Shown piece after piece: positions 38,229 through 42,870 of a stretch of 64,000 nucleotides of DNA. Each line of letters begins with the position of its first letter. Positions within the stretch are counted from its first letter, which is position 1. The notes below the pieces were generated by a model, which did no database searches, had not been told where the DNA came from, and saw only the letters and a list, made by a program, of their open reading frames with translations. The DNA comes from Magnetovibrio sp. (lineage in GTDB: Bacteria; Pseudomonadota; Alphaproteobacteria; Rhodospirillales; Magnetovibrionaceae). Where the stretch lies: positions 1 to 64,000 of the forward strand of contig JAPHSY010000017.1 in NCBI GenBank assembly GCA_026196495.1. The letters run 5' to 3'. A program made the translations under genes and the position numbers.

Positions 38229-40013
38229 TTTCTCTATGGCATAAATTTTGGCTTCATAAGCACCAAGGTCATACAGCAAGGTCATACCAGGTACACTTCG
38301 CCCTAGACTGAGACGGGCATGTAAGGTTTCCTGGTTGCGTTGGTAAGCGATCATTTCTGGACCGACCGGACATACGACAATGACATCGGCAGCTATATCC
38401 TTTGGAACGTCAGGTTCAGTTGAGAGCAGGGCCGATACACTATCATGAACGGCGTCAGCATTTGGATGAATGGGCACTGACAATACGCGGTGGTTGGTGT
38501 GATACAGATATGTTGGCGTCACATTGGAATGAGCCAGGATAACCTGTGGCCCATAATCTTGTTCAAGGACATGGAGTTGAACGACCGTTTTGGGGATATC
38601 ACATCTCATATTTTTCATCTTGTCATATACATCGATTGTGGTGTTCCACTTCGGGTTTAAATACATGACTTGAGCAATGACGGTGTTCAGACTTGCCAAA
38701 CCTAAAATGGTGAAAAGGCTGAGTGGGCGTATCAGTACCCATATCCGATTTTTGCGTTGTGACATATGGTCCCAGAGTTTGGCAAAACCTGCGAACAAAT
38801 ATGGAATGGCACACAGTTGTGCATATGTAATCCAGCGTTCTGACGAAGCCCATGACAGGAGGCAGAACAAAACCAAAGACGGGGTGATGTAGGCGAGGCT
38901 GGCTTGCAACTGAACGTGATTGTTCCCATGGGAACGGATCATCATTGCCACCCCAATAAGGATGGAGAGGGCACAAAGTATCAGTCCAAATGATACCCCC
39001 AATGTAAAGCCATCACTGAAAACACCTGTCCACACATTGACAAACCACGTATCTGCATGTGCCATTGGACCGTGAACAGCTTGAGGGACGAGTGCAATAA
39101 GAAGAGCTGCGGCGATTGCACTGGTGATGAGACCCGCAAATATGCGGATCACAGGGGTGAGCACTTTCTTTTCAAGAAAATATAAGCTTGTCCATATCCC
39201 AACTAAGACTAGACTCAGTGCCAAGCTGAAGAGGGATAGACGGTCCAAAGCAAGGTCAAGTTTGCTAATCGCACCAAACTCAATCCACAAAGCCGCAAAT
39301 ACGCCTAGAGCCAACGCGATGGTGGATCGCAATACAAGGCGTGATACGTTTTTGTTCAACCCCATTGCCCATAGCAGTCCAAATCCAATATGCAGCGCGC
39401 CAATTGAGACTAAACTTTCTGGACTGATCCAAATGGCCAGAGCCTGAACGAATCCAAGCCCCCAGGCTGAACGCTTACTATCCTGATCCAATATGTTGTG
39501 GCCCAACAGTAGGGCTAAGATAAATAGGATTAGCAACAGGCCGTGATGATCTGGCCAACCTTGGGCGATAAAGACAAAATAAAAGTAGGGCAGCAATGAA
39601 ATGAATAAGGCCGTAAGCCCCAATGCCATGGGGCGATGTTCACCAGCAATCGATGGGAGGTTTGATGCTAAATAGAGTGCTATCCAAGCAGCGGGGAGGC
39701 TAATCACCGTTCCAGCCAACATCAATGGATCTGGTGATGTTGTAAAACTTTCTGCAATCCAAGTTGCCACAATCACCAGCGCATCGAGTGGGCGTGTCCA
39801 ATGCAAGATTAACTGATCATCCATGCCAACACGCTGGAACACGCGTTCGAACCAACCACCATCAACCATTAACTGGCGGATACGCTCCAAACGCACATAG
39901 GCATCGGGGTTGCCAATAAACCCAGGAGCTATCACGGTCCCAGCGCCCAGACTGAACCGTGCCCACACATGGGTGGTTAGGATAAGACCAGGAAGTATGG
40001 CAATGAAACGCAT
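38226..40013 (-). CDS. Multi-pass membrane protein, STT3/GT-C glycosyltransferase-like
   Basis: The 595-residue protein has about 12 membrane segments and a C-terminal soluble part. The start at 40013 (ATG) is preferred over a TTG at 40028. Near the N-terminus GNPDAYVRLERIRQLM stands in the first outside loop, and later AQGWPDHHGLLLILFIL. This acidic first loop followed by a DHH motif is the layout of oligosaccharyltransferase STT3/PglB-like GT-C enzymes. The catalytic WWDYG-type motif of true STT3 is not seen, so it may be a related lipid-linked sugar transferase. No glycan genes lie next to it. Confidence 0.6.
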   Translation of the reverse strand: MRFIAILPGLILTTHVWARFSLGAGTVIAPGFIGNPDAYVRLERIRQLMVDGGWFERVFQRVGMDDQLILHWTRPLDALVIVATWIAESFTTSPDPLMLAGTVISLPAAWIALYLASNLPSIAGEHRPMALGLTALFISLLPYFYFVFIAQGWPDHHGLLLILFILALLLGHNILDQDSKRSAWGLGFVQALAIWISPESLVSIGALHIGFGLLWAMGLNKNVSRLVLRSTIALALGVFAALWIEFGAISKLDLALDRLSLFSLALSLVLVGIWTSLYFLEKKVLTPVIRIFAGLITSAIAAALLIALVPQAVHGPMAHADTWFVNVWTGVFSDGFTLGVSFGLILCALSILIGVAMMIRSHGNNHVQLQASLAYITPSLVLFCLLSWASSERWITYAQLCAIPYLFAGFAKLWDHMSQRKNRIWVLIRPLSLFTILGLASLNTVIAQVMYLNPKWNTTIDVYDKMKNMRCDIPKTVVQLHVLEQDYGPQVILAHSNVTPTYLYHTNHRVLSVPIHPNADAVHDSVSALLSTEPDVPKDIAADVIVVCPVGPEMIAYQRNQETLHARLSLGRSVPGMTLLYDLGAYEAKIYAIEK

Positions 40014-40066
40014 GAAGCTTTGAGGCAAATCAGTATATCCACAGTGTTAGATAAACGGTTGCCATG

Positions 40067-40684
40067 CTAATCGTTGGGTAGGGGGCGTGCCACCAAAAGT
40101 TTGATGATGTCTTTGTGAAGGTACTTGGCTTCCACCAACTCCAATCCAGCGGCATCAAAATACTGTTCGGTATTGCGATCAAACTCAGCCCCATAAGCAA
40201 ACCGAACCCATGGTGCCCAGAGTTTCATGATGAACCGTCGCCAGGGGCTCTTAGAAATTGAATACTCCAAAATATGGATTTCTCCGTCAGGGCGGCATAC
40301 GCGGCGGATTTCTTCAAGGGCAGGTAACTGGTGTTCATCGTCGAGAACGCAAAACAGAAAGGTTGAAACAACAGCGTCAAAGCTGTCGTCAGGAAAGTCC
40401 ATCTCCATTACGTTCATCTCATAGAGATCAACGTTTATGCCAAGTTGTTCCTTGCGCCACCTTGCGCGTGCCAACATGGCTGGGGTGAGATCTATGCCAG
40501 TAACTTTGCTGTCTTTGGGGTAATGGATGAAGTTGCGACCGGTACCGACCCCGGCATCCAACACATCGCCTTTCACCCCCACAAACATAGCCTTTCGCAA
40601 TGGCATATACCGGGCATATTCAAACGGCAAATCCAATAGATCATAAAGTCGCGCAATGCGGTTATATGTTTTGTGTTTACTGAT
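40067..40684 (-). CDS. Class I SAM methyltransferase, apparent AUC start
   Basis: The conserved core VLDAGVGTGRNF and FDAVVSTFLFCVLDD place it with UbiE-like methyltransferases (Methyltransf_11 type). An ordinary-start call would begin at a TTG at 40636 and cut off a conserved start. In frame upstream one reads SKHKTYNRIARLYDLLDLPF, typical of the family, directly after an ATC at 40684. A perfect AGGAGG lies five bases before this ATC, and a stop lies just beyond. So translation probably starts at AUC, giving 205 residues. The substrate is unknown; with the STT3-like gene downstream a lipid or quinone role is only a guess. Confidence 0.8.
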   Translation of the reverse strand: MSKHKTYNRIARLYDLLDLPFEYARYMPLRKAMFVGVKGDVLDAGVGTGRNFIHYPKDSKVTGIDLTPAMLARARWRKEQLGINVDLYEMNVMEMDFPDDSFDAVVSTFLFCVLDDEHQLPALEEIRRVCRPDGEIHILEYSISKSPWRRFIMKLWAPWVRFAYGAEFDRNTEQYFDAAGLELVEAKYLHKDIIKLLVARPLPND

Positions 40685-40718
40685 GCTGGCCTCCTATCCC
40701 GCCGCAACACTAACATAA

Positions 40719-40752
40719 AAAAAAGGCTGCCCCAATCGGAGCAGCCTTTTTT
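40719..40752. terminator. Terminator of the chemoreceptor gene
   Basis: AAAGGCTGC at 40722-40730 pairs with GCAGCCTTT at 40741-40749, with A and T tracts on both sides. Confidence 0.8.
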
Positions 40753-40767
40753 ATATCCAGTTAGTTT

Positions 40768-42870
40768 TTAGCCATTGCGGATGTTTGCAAGGAATTTATC
40801 GACTTCACCACGCAACAGTTCTGATTGTTGGCTTAACTCGGTCGCTGCACCTAACATCTGTTCCGCAGATTGCCCTGTTTCGGTAGCAGCCTGATTAACG
40901 CCCGTGATATTCGATGAAACCTCACCCGTACCGGCCGCCGCCTGTTCAACATTGCGAGCAATTTCTTGTGTGGCTGCGCCTTGCTCTTCAACCGCGGCTG
41001 CAATGGTGCCGGCAATTTCACTGATCTGATTTATGGTGGATCCAATTGACCCAATTGCCTCAACCGCGTCTTTGGTGGCACCTTGGATGTCTCCAATTTG
41101 TGTTGAGATTTCTTCGGTTGCTTTTGCTGTGGCATTGGCAAGGTTCTTGACCTCCGATGCAACGACTGCGAAACCTTTACCAGCTTCACCGGCACGTGCA
41201 GCTTCAATGGTGGCGTTCAAGGCCAACAGGTTGGTTTGGTCTGCAATATCCGTGATCAAGGCGACAACTTCACCAATTTTGTTGGCGGCATCAGCTAGGC
41301 CTTGAACCTTTTCATTGGCACCATCGATTTCGGCAACAGCCGAGTCTGCAATCTGAGTGGATTGCACAACTTGGCGGGAAATCTCAGAGATTGAGCTTGA
41401 TAATTCTTCTGAGGCTGAAGCAACGGTTTGCACGTTGGCCGAAGCTTCTTCGGATGCGGCAGCCACCGTTGCGGCTTGTTGTGATGTTTGCTCGGCCGTT
41501 GCCGACAAGGTTGAAGCAGACGATTGCATTTCCGTCGAGGCAGATGATACCGAGTTCACAACACCGCCAACGCTGTTTTCAAAGTCGTCAGCCATGGTCA
41601 TCATCAGGCGAATTTTTTCTTCTTCGGTCTTTTGTTTTTGCGCTTTGGCTTCGGCTTCCATTTCTTGGGTGCGAATAGCGTTATCTTTAAAGACCTGTAC
41701 AGCCTGTGCCATTTCACCAATTTCGTCATTTTTATCCAAGGCAGGAATGTCTGTATGCAGATTGCCATCGGCCAGGGCGCCCATAGCCACTGTCATGCCG
41801 TTTACAGGACCAACAATGGAACGAATAATCAAAAAGCTGACGACACCAGCAGCAAGAAGACCGGCTGCCAGCAAAATCCATTCGGTATTGAGCAGGGTGG
41901 AAACGGCTGAATCGTTTTTAGCAACATCGTTGGTCAGTAGTGTTTGCTGATTTTGTTGCATGCCGCCTTCACGCACACCTTCGGCATTTTTATTGCCGAG
42001 TAACATGTTCAAGAGCTTCCCAGCACGTGGTGCAGCCTCGGTAACCAAGGTGTAGTTGGCCATGTTCCATTTTTTGGAACCACGGATTTCAAACATTTTG
42101 GGTGGCAGTGGTGAAAACTCTTCACGCTTGGCGGCAAAAGTATCAAATGCTGCTTTTTGTTCTGCCGATAAGTTGTCAATTTGGCCTGACAAATCACCAA
42201 AACGTTTGGCGTTTTTTGCCCATAATTTTTTAAAGTTTTCAGCAAATTTTGACTCACCGGTCAAAAGGTAAGCACGAATGTTGGCTAATCCTAACCCTAG
42301 AGAGCCACGGGTATCTGCCATCATGCCCAAAATTTGTACTCGGTCGCCGCCGGTGCCGCCTTGTCCCTGGAGTTCCAGGTCAATCATCGTGGAAATGTTT
42401 TTGACCATGTCGGCGGCACGCGGGGCAGCCTCGGTCACCAGCATCAAAGTTGCGGGTTGTTCCTGTGGGGTCTTGGCGATGTCTTCGACTTGTTGCTGGG
42501 CAATGCGGAACTCTTCGAGAATGCCTTTGAAAACCTGAAAGTTATCGACGTTTTTGGAGTTGGTCCAGGATTTTGAAAGCTCATCCATATTGGTGATGGT
42601 CTTGTCGATGTTGGCCCAAACTTCCTCACGTTGGTTTTTAAAACCCTGTGCACCCGTTAGCATATAGCCGCGCAAAGCGGCGAGAGAGCCATAAATATTT
42701 TTAACCATGTCAGAACTTGCCGCAGCAGTCGGCATACGCAATTCAACAATGCGTTTTGATGTTTTGTCAATTTCTGACACGTTCCAAATGGTCATGCCGA
42801 CGGCCACTGCCAAAATGGCAGCCATCGTGCCAAAGCCCAATATGAGGCGAGCACTTATCTTAAAATTCAT
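40768..42870 (-). CDS. Methyl-accepting chemotaxis protein
   Basis: The 700-residue receptor has an N-terminal membrane helix (residues 8-30), a long periplasmic helical sensor (about 30-330), a second membrane helix (WILLAAGLLAAGVVSFLIIR), a HAMP domain and the signalling domain with the hairpin tip (LIADIADQTNLLALNATIEA-type sequence, here DIADQTNLLALNATIEAARA). The sensor region contains two copies of VTEAAPRA about 120 residues apart, so it looks like a duplicated helical bundle, as in HBM-type receptors. It should be methylated by CheR. The ligand is unknown. Confidence 0.93.
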   Translation of the reverse strand: MNFKISARLILGFGTMAAILAVAVGMTIWNVSEIDKTSKRIVELRMPTAAASSDMVKNIYGSLAALRGYMLTGAQGFKNQREEVWANIDKTITNMDELSKSWTNSKNVDNFQVFKGILEEFRIAQQQVEDIAKTPQEQPATLMLVTEAAPRAADMVKNISTMIDLELQGQGGTGGDRVQILGMMADTRGSLGLGLANIRAYLLTGESKFAENFKKLWAKNAKRFGDLSGQIDNLSAEQKAAFDTFAAKREEFSPLPPKMFEIRGSKKWNMANYTLVTEAAPRAGKLLNMLLGNKNAEGVREGGMQQNQQTLLTNDVAKNDSAVSTLLNTEWILLAAGLLAAGVVSFLIIRSIVGPVNGMTVAMGALADGNLHTDIPALDKNDEIGEMAQAVQVFKDNAIRTQEMEAEAKAQKQKTEEEKIRLMMTMADDFENSVGGVVNSVSSASTEMQSSASTLSATAEQTSQQAATVAAASEEASANVQTVASASEELSSSISEISRQVVQSTQIADSAVAEIDGANEKVQGLADAANKIGEVVALITDIADQTNLLALNATIEAARAGEAGKGFAVVASEVKNLANATAKATEEISTQIGDIQGATKDAVEAIGSIGSTINQISEIAGTIAAAVEEQGAATQEIARNVEQAAAGTGEVSSNITGVNQAATETGQSAEQMLGAATELSQQSELLRGEVDKFLANIRNG

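Follow-up and report, generated by a model that had tools for sequence, protein, structure and literature searches.

A probable AUC start codon behind a strong Shine-Dalgarno sequence in a PmtA/UbiE-like methyltransferase gene of Magnetovibrio sp., with AUH starts recurring in its alphaproteobacterial relatives

The stretch analysed here (the window) comprises 64,000 nucleotides of a Magnetovibrio sp. contig, and its minus strand carries a methyltransferase gene located behind a chemoreceptor gene (Table 1). The minus-strand start region reads GGGA TAG GAG GCC AGC ATC AGT AAA CAC AAA ACA TAT AAC CGC, and translation from AUC, a codon almost never used by bacteria for protein initiation, gives the N-terminus ISKHKTYNR. 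As the original prediction had stated, a perfect Shine-Dalgarno (SD) sequence lies five bases before the ATC and an in-frame TAG bars any upstream ATG, GTG, or TTG, so that an upstream canonical start was rejected for the window. The gene bound given in that prediction, 40690, required correction, as it lies two codons (six bases) upstream of the ATC. Between the TAG and codon +16 the frame contained zero ATG, GTG, or TTG codons; canonical codons begin only with the TTGs at +16 (40636) and +18, whose SD energies were +0.4 and +0.6 kcal/mol, respectively. The locus thus has no canonical codon able to serve as the start and has an AUH codon (AUC, AUA, or AUU) at normal SD spacing. From the end of the chemoreceptor gene to the ATC there are 83 bases, and the terminator-like hairpin lies within this interval. 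No match was obtained for a sigma-70-like promoter in 40600-40900 or for Rfam families in 39900-41000.

Table 1 Features of the methyltransferase locus in the window.
Feature	Position	Strand	Basis and remarks
Shine-Dalgarno sequence AGGAGG	40690..40695	-	Direct reading; anti-SD duplex -10.2 kcal/mol at ATC
Probable AUC start codon	40682..40684	-	AGGAGG, five bases (CCAGC, 40689-40685), then ATC; aligned codon AUH in seven orthologues including the window
In-frame TAG barring upstream starts	40694..40696	-	Translation; overlaps the SD (TAG GAG GCC AGC ATC)
Methyltransferase gene (205 codons, 205 aa)	40067..40684	-	Translation, Pfam, and fold; stop TAG 40069-40067
Hairpin resembling an intrinsic terminator, behind the upstream chemoreceptor gene	40719..40752	-	About 30 bases separate the end of its T-run from the AUC

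The predicted identity of the product as a methyltransferase was borne out by Pfam (Methyltransf_25, 5.4e-23; Methyltransf_11, 4.7e-20; Ubie_methyltran, 6.1e-13), the score of 81.9 bits against a gathering cut-off of 27 placing it in Methyltransf_25/11. The translation contains the SAM-binding motif DAGVGTG, with D45, G47, G49, and G51 invariant in an alignment of 17 rows; E/DxGxGxG is described as the SAM-binding motif of class I methyltransferases (PMC12139422). The cut-off was reached by none of the best 25 of 31 NCBIfam families, the nearest being CpaM (82 bits; cut-off 180) and the PmtA model NF045882, by name a Legionella-type model, of which the protein is not a member at 78.6 bits against 390. 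The predicted structure had a mean pLDDT of 86.9 and was weak over the first 30 residues; an N-terminal helix spans residues 2-35 in the model, with a mean pLDDT of only 49, 53, and 58 over the first three 10-residue blocks. The membrane helix of AtPmtA is reported to comprise residues 5-24 (PMC12139422). Among the best 50 of 1980 structural matches, the nearest solved fold was PmtA, the phosphatidylethanolamine N-methyltransferase of R. thermophilum (8ys9; TM 0.80), which was also the top match of a PDB profile search (1.2e-19), although this PmtA fold was not exclusive, since yeast Coq5 (4obw) reached a TM of up to 0.78 in the same best 50. The product differs from PmtA in that the identity to 8ys9 is 26%, its score lies below the NCBIfam PmtA cut-off, and its lipid substrate is putative. 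The enzyme is a class I SAM-dependent methyltransferase of the PmtA/UbiE-like kind and most likely a membrane-associated, PmtA-like enzyme, with a membrane lipid or similar compound as its putative substrate. In the window's genome, two proteins (L191 and L209) exceeded the UbiE cut-off.

A tree of 45 rows placed the gene in a 22-member clade (support 100/98) whose members were 63-76% identical to the window methyltransferase, with the bootstrap incompletely settled and many forks within the clade unresolved. The original prediction had proposed a check of whether relatives carry ATG at this codon. This held for nine of the 22, and the others started with AUH (seven), TTG (three), or GTG (two), with one ambiguous. 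The AUH members were the window, L032, and L036 (ATC), L003, L004, and L046 (ATA), and L045 (ATT), whereas in the ambiguous L038 an AUH codon and a GTG three codons upstream share one SD. Five canonical starts (L035, L037, L047, L052, and L178) had moved 1-5 codons off the aligned position; those of L035 (GTG) and L037 (ATG) stand right after an in-frame TAA, one codon past the AUH position. Outside the clade, 22 of 23 rows had a canonical codon within the range considered, L007 had none there, and AUH was called in 0 of the 23. As judged from the sequences, AUH recurs in the methyltransferase family across Alphaproteobacteria; it is not obligatory there, because 14 of the 22 clade members have canonical starts.

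The surroundings of the AUH codon were similar among the seven genes. In six, no canonical start lies between the in-frame stop and the AUH; the exception, L036, has a TTG 19 codons upstream, with an SD of -4.3 kcal/mol versus -10.7 kcal/mol at its ATC. No canonical codon occurs within the next 15 codons in any of the seven, and in the six genes other than that of the window the first downstream canonical codon was at +28 (four genes) or was absent from the first 30 codons (two genes). L003 and L004 have tandem AUH codons (ATC ATA), either of which could serve as the start. Mapped on the tree, the AUH label required five changes (3-6 over the bootstrap), at least two of them forced by starred branches, and it was only mildly clustered on the whole tree (17 of 500 label shuffles were as low). 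Two sister-species pairs occur among the seven members, and the sisters agree. An earlier tree with 19 clade rows, in which L038 was scored as AUH, gave support of 98/92 and four changes. The ambiguous L038 and L007 were kept in the tree and excluded from the SD counts. The tree left out the same-contig rows L031 and L041 (contigs of L043 and L045), second copies (L177, L179, L181, L183, L184, L185, and L232), rows with a missing or unaligned N-terminus (L039, L040, L056, and L059), and the more distant rows L009-L030, L057, L058, and L070-L080.

SD strength separated the two kinds of start completely within the clade: the duplex energies of the AUH rows were -7.9 to -11.4 kcal/mol, and those of the 14 canonical rows were -2.2 to -7.5 kcal/mol. 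All these energies rest on what we take to be the common anti-SD sequence, in place of one from each genome's own 16S gene. Canonical rows were scored by the codon with the best SD in range, a choice that works against a difference between the groups. The Mann-Whitney test gave p = 1.3e-4 against the 21 canonical rows with at least 63% identity and p = 1.6e-4 against all 36, values that are not strict probabilities because the rows are related. A stronger SD accompanies AUH starts within the clade in a compensation-like manner. In the wider family a strong SD is not peculiar to AUH, since six canonical rows outside the clade had SDs of -8.7 to -10.8 kcal/mol. With regard to chance, 114 of 4000 random ATH sites in sampled pieces of the window's genome reached -7.9 kcal/mol, and when 288 coding-like ORFs from it were inspected for strong-SD codons ahead of the canonical start, 30 such codons emerged, 2 of them ATH, about the chance level. 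Strong SDs before ATH are therefore not rare, and the window locus by itself is no more than suggestive; the pattern exceeds chance because seven orthologues, that of the window included, carry AUH at the aligned position, each with an SD of -7.9 kcal/mol or better.

The seven AUH rows were compared to locate the onset of coding selection. From codon +1 to codon +16 they showed 58, 30, and 152 differences at positions 1, 2, and 3, respectively, with 103 synonymous versus 81 non-synonymous differences (336 comparisons). In codons -6 to -1, the three positions differed almost evenly (75, 84, and 80), and 5 synonymous versus 109 non-synonymous differences were counted (126 comparisons). The residues right after the AUH were conserved, whereas those before it were variable. 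Furthermore, Y9, Y16, and D17 (numbering of alignment A1, 17 rows), all invariant, precede the window TTG. Coding-type selection from the AUH onward places the start at this codon and counts against both an upstream start and the downstream TTG.

As a control, infC was sought in the ortholog-bearing genomes. It was recovered for 20 of 24 genome handles, representing 19 distinct genomes (G126 and G704 are one place), and every one of the 20 had AUH at the aligned start codon (15 ATA, 4 ATC, and 1 ATT). These starts were assigned by alignment, a prior regular-expression search having caught 7 of the 20 loci. Five infC rows from four genomes (L082, L085, L093, L094, and L097) have an ATG 5-6 codons past the AUH. 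The infC gene of the window's genome (L088, G000:C62, near 113617) aligns to an ATC start after AGGAGAAGGGCC and has a TTG 14 codons upstream. In 22 of the ortholog-bearing genomes, a canonical codon stood at or before the conserved region in frr (21 of 21 loci) and ubiE (23 of 23 loci). In four of these frr rows (L220, L221, L222, and L227), the canonical start is accompanied by an ATH codon whose SD energy is -9.0 or -9.4 kcal/mol, so that ATH with an SD is alone no proof of initiation. A scan of 704 coding-like ORFs from parts of three genomes (288, 164, and 252) flagged the methyltransferase in all three; the scan was not blind, as the pieces bearing this gene had been included deliberately. 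Strong-SD codons showed no excess of ATH (2 of 30, 5 of 128, and 2 of 40). The scan flagged infC in none of the three genomes, although it was present in all three samples: a canonical codon lies nearby in two of them, and the infC of G054 passes in SD, length, and coding score. Consequently, the scan cannot measure the number of AUH genes per genome. Its other ATH flags, one, three, and one per genome (L128, L140, L142, L155, and L166), have a strong SD and at least 12 codons without a canonical codon, and are chance occurrences or possibly further AUH genes.

The methyltransferase gene was sporadic. With a cut-off of E <= 1e-40, 26 genomes among 317 of the same order and 19 among 385 sampled from the class carried an orthologue, the window's genome being counted in both sets; the remaining members of the genus (five genomes) and of the family (twelve more) carried none. 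A search of genome contigs gave eleven orthologue loci. Searches centred on other carriers with stricter cut-offs gave 7 of 297, 1 of 292, 4 of 15, 1 of 5, 2 of 30, and 1 of 69 genomes; these sets overlap, and their counts include the centre genomes. In L054 and L064, one TGA lies within the open frame or match of each orthologue. No partner gene was evident across the neighbourhoods of 28 loci (27 distinct, L060 and L115 coinciding), compared as ORFs of at least 90 codons in the 30 largest clusters, of which those other than the methyltransferase comprised 2-3 loci each. A tblastn search of plasmids returned 227 records, every one below 60% identity, and a scan of viral contigs returned three loci with identities of 44, 42, and 31%. 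The gene has probably moved between lineages by horizontal acquisition, because it is sporadic and scattered over families.

The AUC start of the methyltransferase, the central claim of the original prediction, is probably real as read from the sequences: AUH in six other genomes, the SD, the onset of selection, and the lack of another usable start all speak for it. Two ways of refuting it had been named in advance. One was a true ATG misread as ATC by sequencing or assembly, an idea to which the nine ATG members of the clade and the draft state of the window's genome (86 contigs) lend something; however, six other genomes, two concordant sister pairs among them, have ATC, ATA, or ATT at this place in the alignment, and the AUH rows hold the stronger SDs of the clade. 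Since a one-base error would not recur there with three different letters, we regard this explanation as highly improbable. The other was translation from the TTG at 40636 (+16) or that at +18, the resulting protein lacking its first helix. Although both are the earliest canonical codons in the frame, they lack an SD, initiation there would delete the invariant Y9, Y16, and D17, codons +1 to +16 evolve like coding DNA, and the other six AUH genes offer no counterpart of these TTGs at such a distance; we consider a TTG start improbable. Hardly more credible is that translation of the AUH genes is coupled to an upstream frame or reinitiates after it, which would render the identity of the codon nearly irrelevant. 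It fits L046, where an upstream ORF of 483 aa ends nine bases before the ATA and its stop is the in-frame TAG, but not the window, in view of the distance and the hairpin that separate the chemoreceptor gene from the ATC, nor L045, where the nearest upstream ORF of at least 90 codons is on the opposite strand.

As to how and why an AUC would be used, we consider it likely that the gene starts at AUC by means of the AGGAGG, and that this start is weak and discriminated against by IF3, keeping a PmtA-like methyltransferase scarce; in this proposal the low expression, the IF3 sensitivity, the lipid as substrate, and the benefit of scarcity are inferred. The initiator tRNA would read the AUC with a third-base mismatch, which the perfect AGGAGG at good spacing would make possible. 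Discrimination by IF3 against AUH would then lower the enzyme level, down when IF3 is abundant and up when it is scarce. Overproduction of Agrobacterium PmtA is reported to cause intracellular structures, with the N-terminal helix involved in membrane deformation (PMC5312082), and scarcity would make sense because this related enzyme deforms membranes when overproduced. The serious alternative leaves the AUC start untouched and concerns its purpose alone: AUH would be a neutral or slightly harmful product of drift in a seldom-needed, horizontally spread gene, with the strong SD just sustaining expression. The scattered occurrence in the order, the lack of the gene in the rest of the genus (five genomes), and the intermixing of AUH and canonical starts in the clade agree with drift, whereas AUH on five tree branches (not all resolved), its retention in two sister pairs, and the combination of stronger SDs with purifying selection on the protein argue against it; we hold drift to be possible but clearly less probable than a start that keeps the enzyme scarce. 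A broader version of the latter, in which several alphaproteobacterial lineages have gained or retained AUC, AUA, or AUU as a dial, set by IF3, on a horizontally spread lipid-type methyltransferase, would tie lipid methylation to the IF3/ribosome ratio and keep the enzyme scarce in growth states or cold with high IF3. Cold is reported to raise the ratio of initiation factors to ribosomes about threefold (PMC6511846). We put this broader version forward as a speculation that is rather unlikely to hold as a whole. A self-limiting control, which the original prediction had also raised, found no support, because the product, a lipid-type methyltransferase, is not a translation factor.

The pcnB gene of E. 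coli reportedly starts at AUU. Non-canonical starts are reported to be repressed by IF3; this is how infC, starting with ATT in E. coli and with ATC in Streptomyces, regulates itself, and Streptomyces sigR, which starts at GTC, is repressed likewise (PMC5472188). The methyltransferase resembles infC in its AUH codon after an SD, with ATC in both genes of the window's genome, but differs in that AUH is found in 7 of 22 clade members as against 20 of 20 infC matches, and its product gives no autoregulatory loop. Similarly, sigR is a non-canonical start outside infC, with a different codon and in a different gene; its repression by IF3 has been demonstrated, while that of the methyltransferase is suggested by analogy only. 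The methyltransferase is also similar to ccpN (AUA) and cvfC1 (AUU) of S. aureus, described as conserved AUH starts with an extended SD that give about 10% of the AUG output in poor medium (PMC13009471). Those starts were mapped by Ribo-Ret and examined in reporter assays, whereas the methyltransferase start, in Alphaproteobacteria, is deduced from sequence and, unlike them, has ATG, GTG, and TTG relatives within its own clade. In Listeria, infC is reported to start with ATT and rnhC with ATC, and ATA or ATT in rsbW to reduce translation (PMC13068326). From the precedents of infC, sigR, and ccpN, an IF3-sensitive control of the methyltransferase appears plausible.

Few non-canonical starts have been experimentally characterized in bacteria, according to the account in PMC5472188, and AUH starts outside infC have been characterized in few bacterial genes. 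Among the literature matches listed, from a coverage that leaves out most subscription journals, no title or abstract opening named a methyltransferase with an AUH start. The methyltransferase very probably joins the small set of bacterial AUH-start genes outside infC. Public gene starts of this family may be wrong where AUH has been avoided. One aligned codon that is AUC, AUA, AUU, TTG, GTG, or ATG, with the stronger SDs of the clade on the AUH side, constitutes a natural experiment on the trade-off between start codon and SD, and the family offers a direct way to test whether IF3 controls the expression of a metabolic enzyme.
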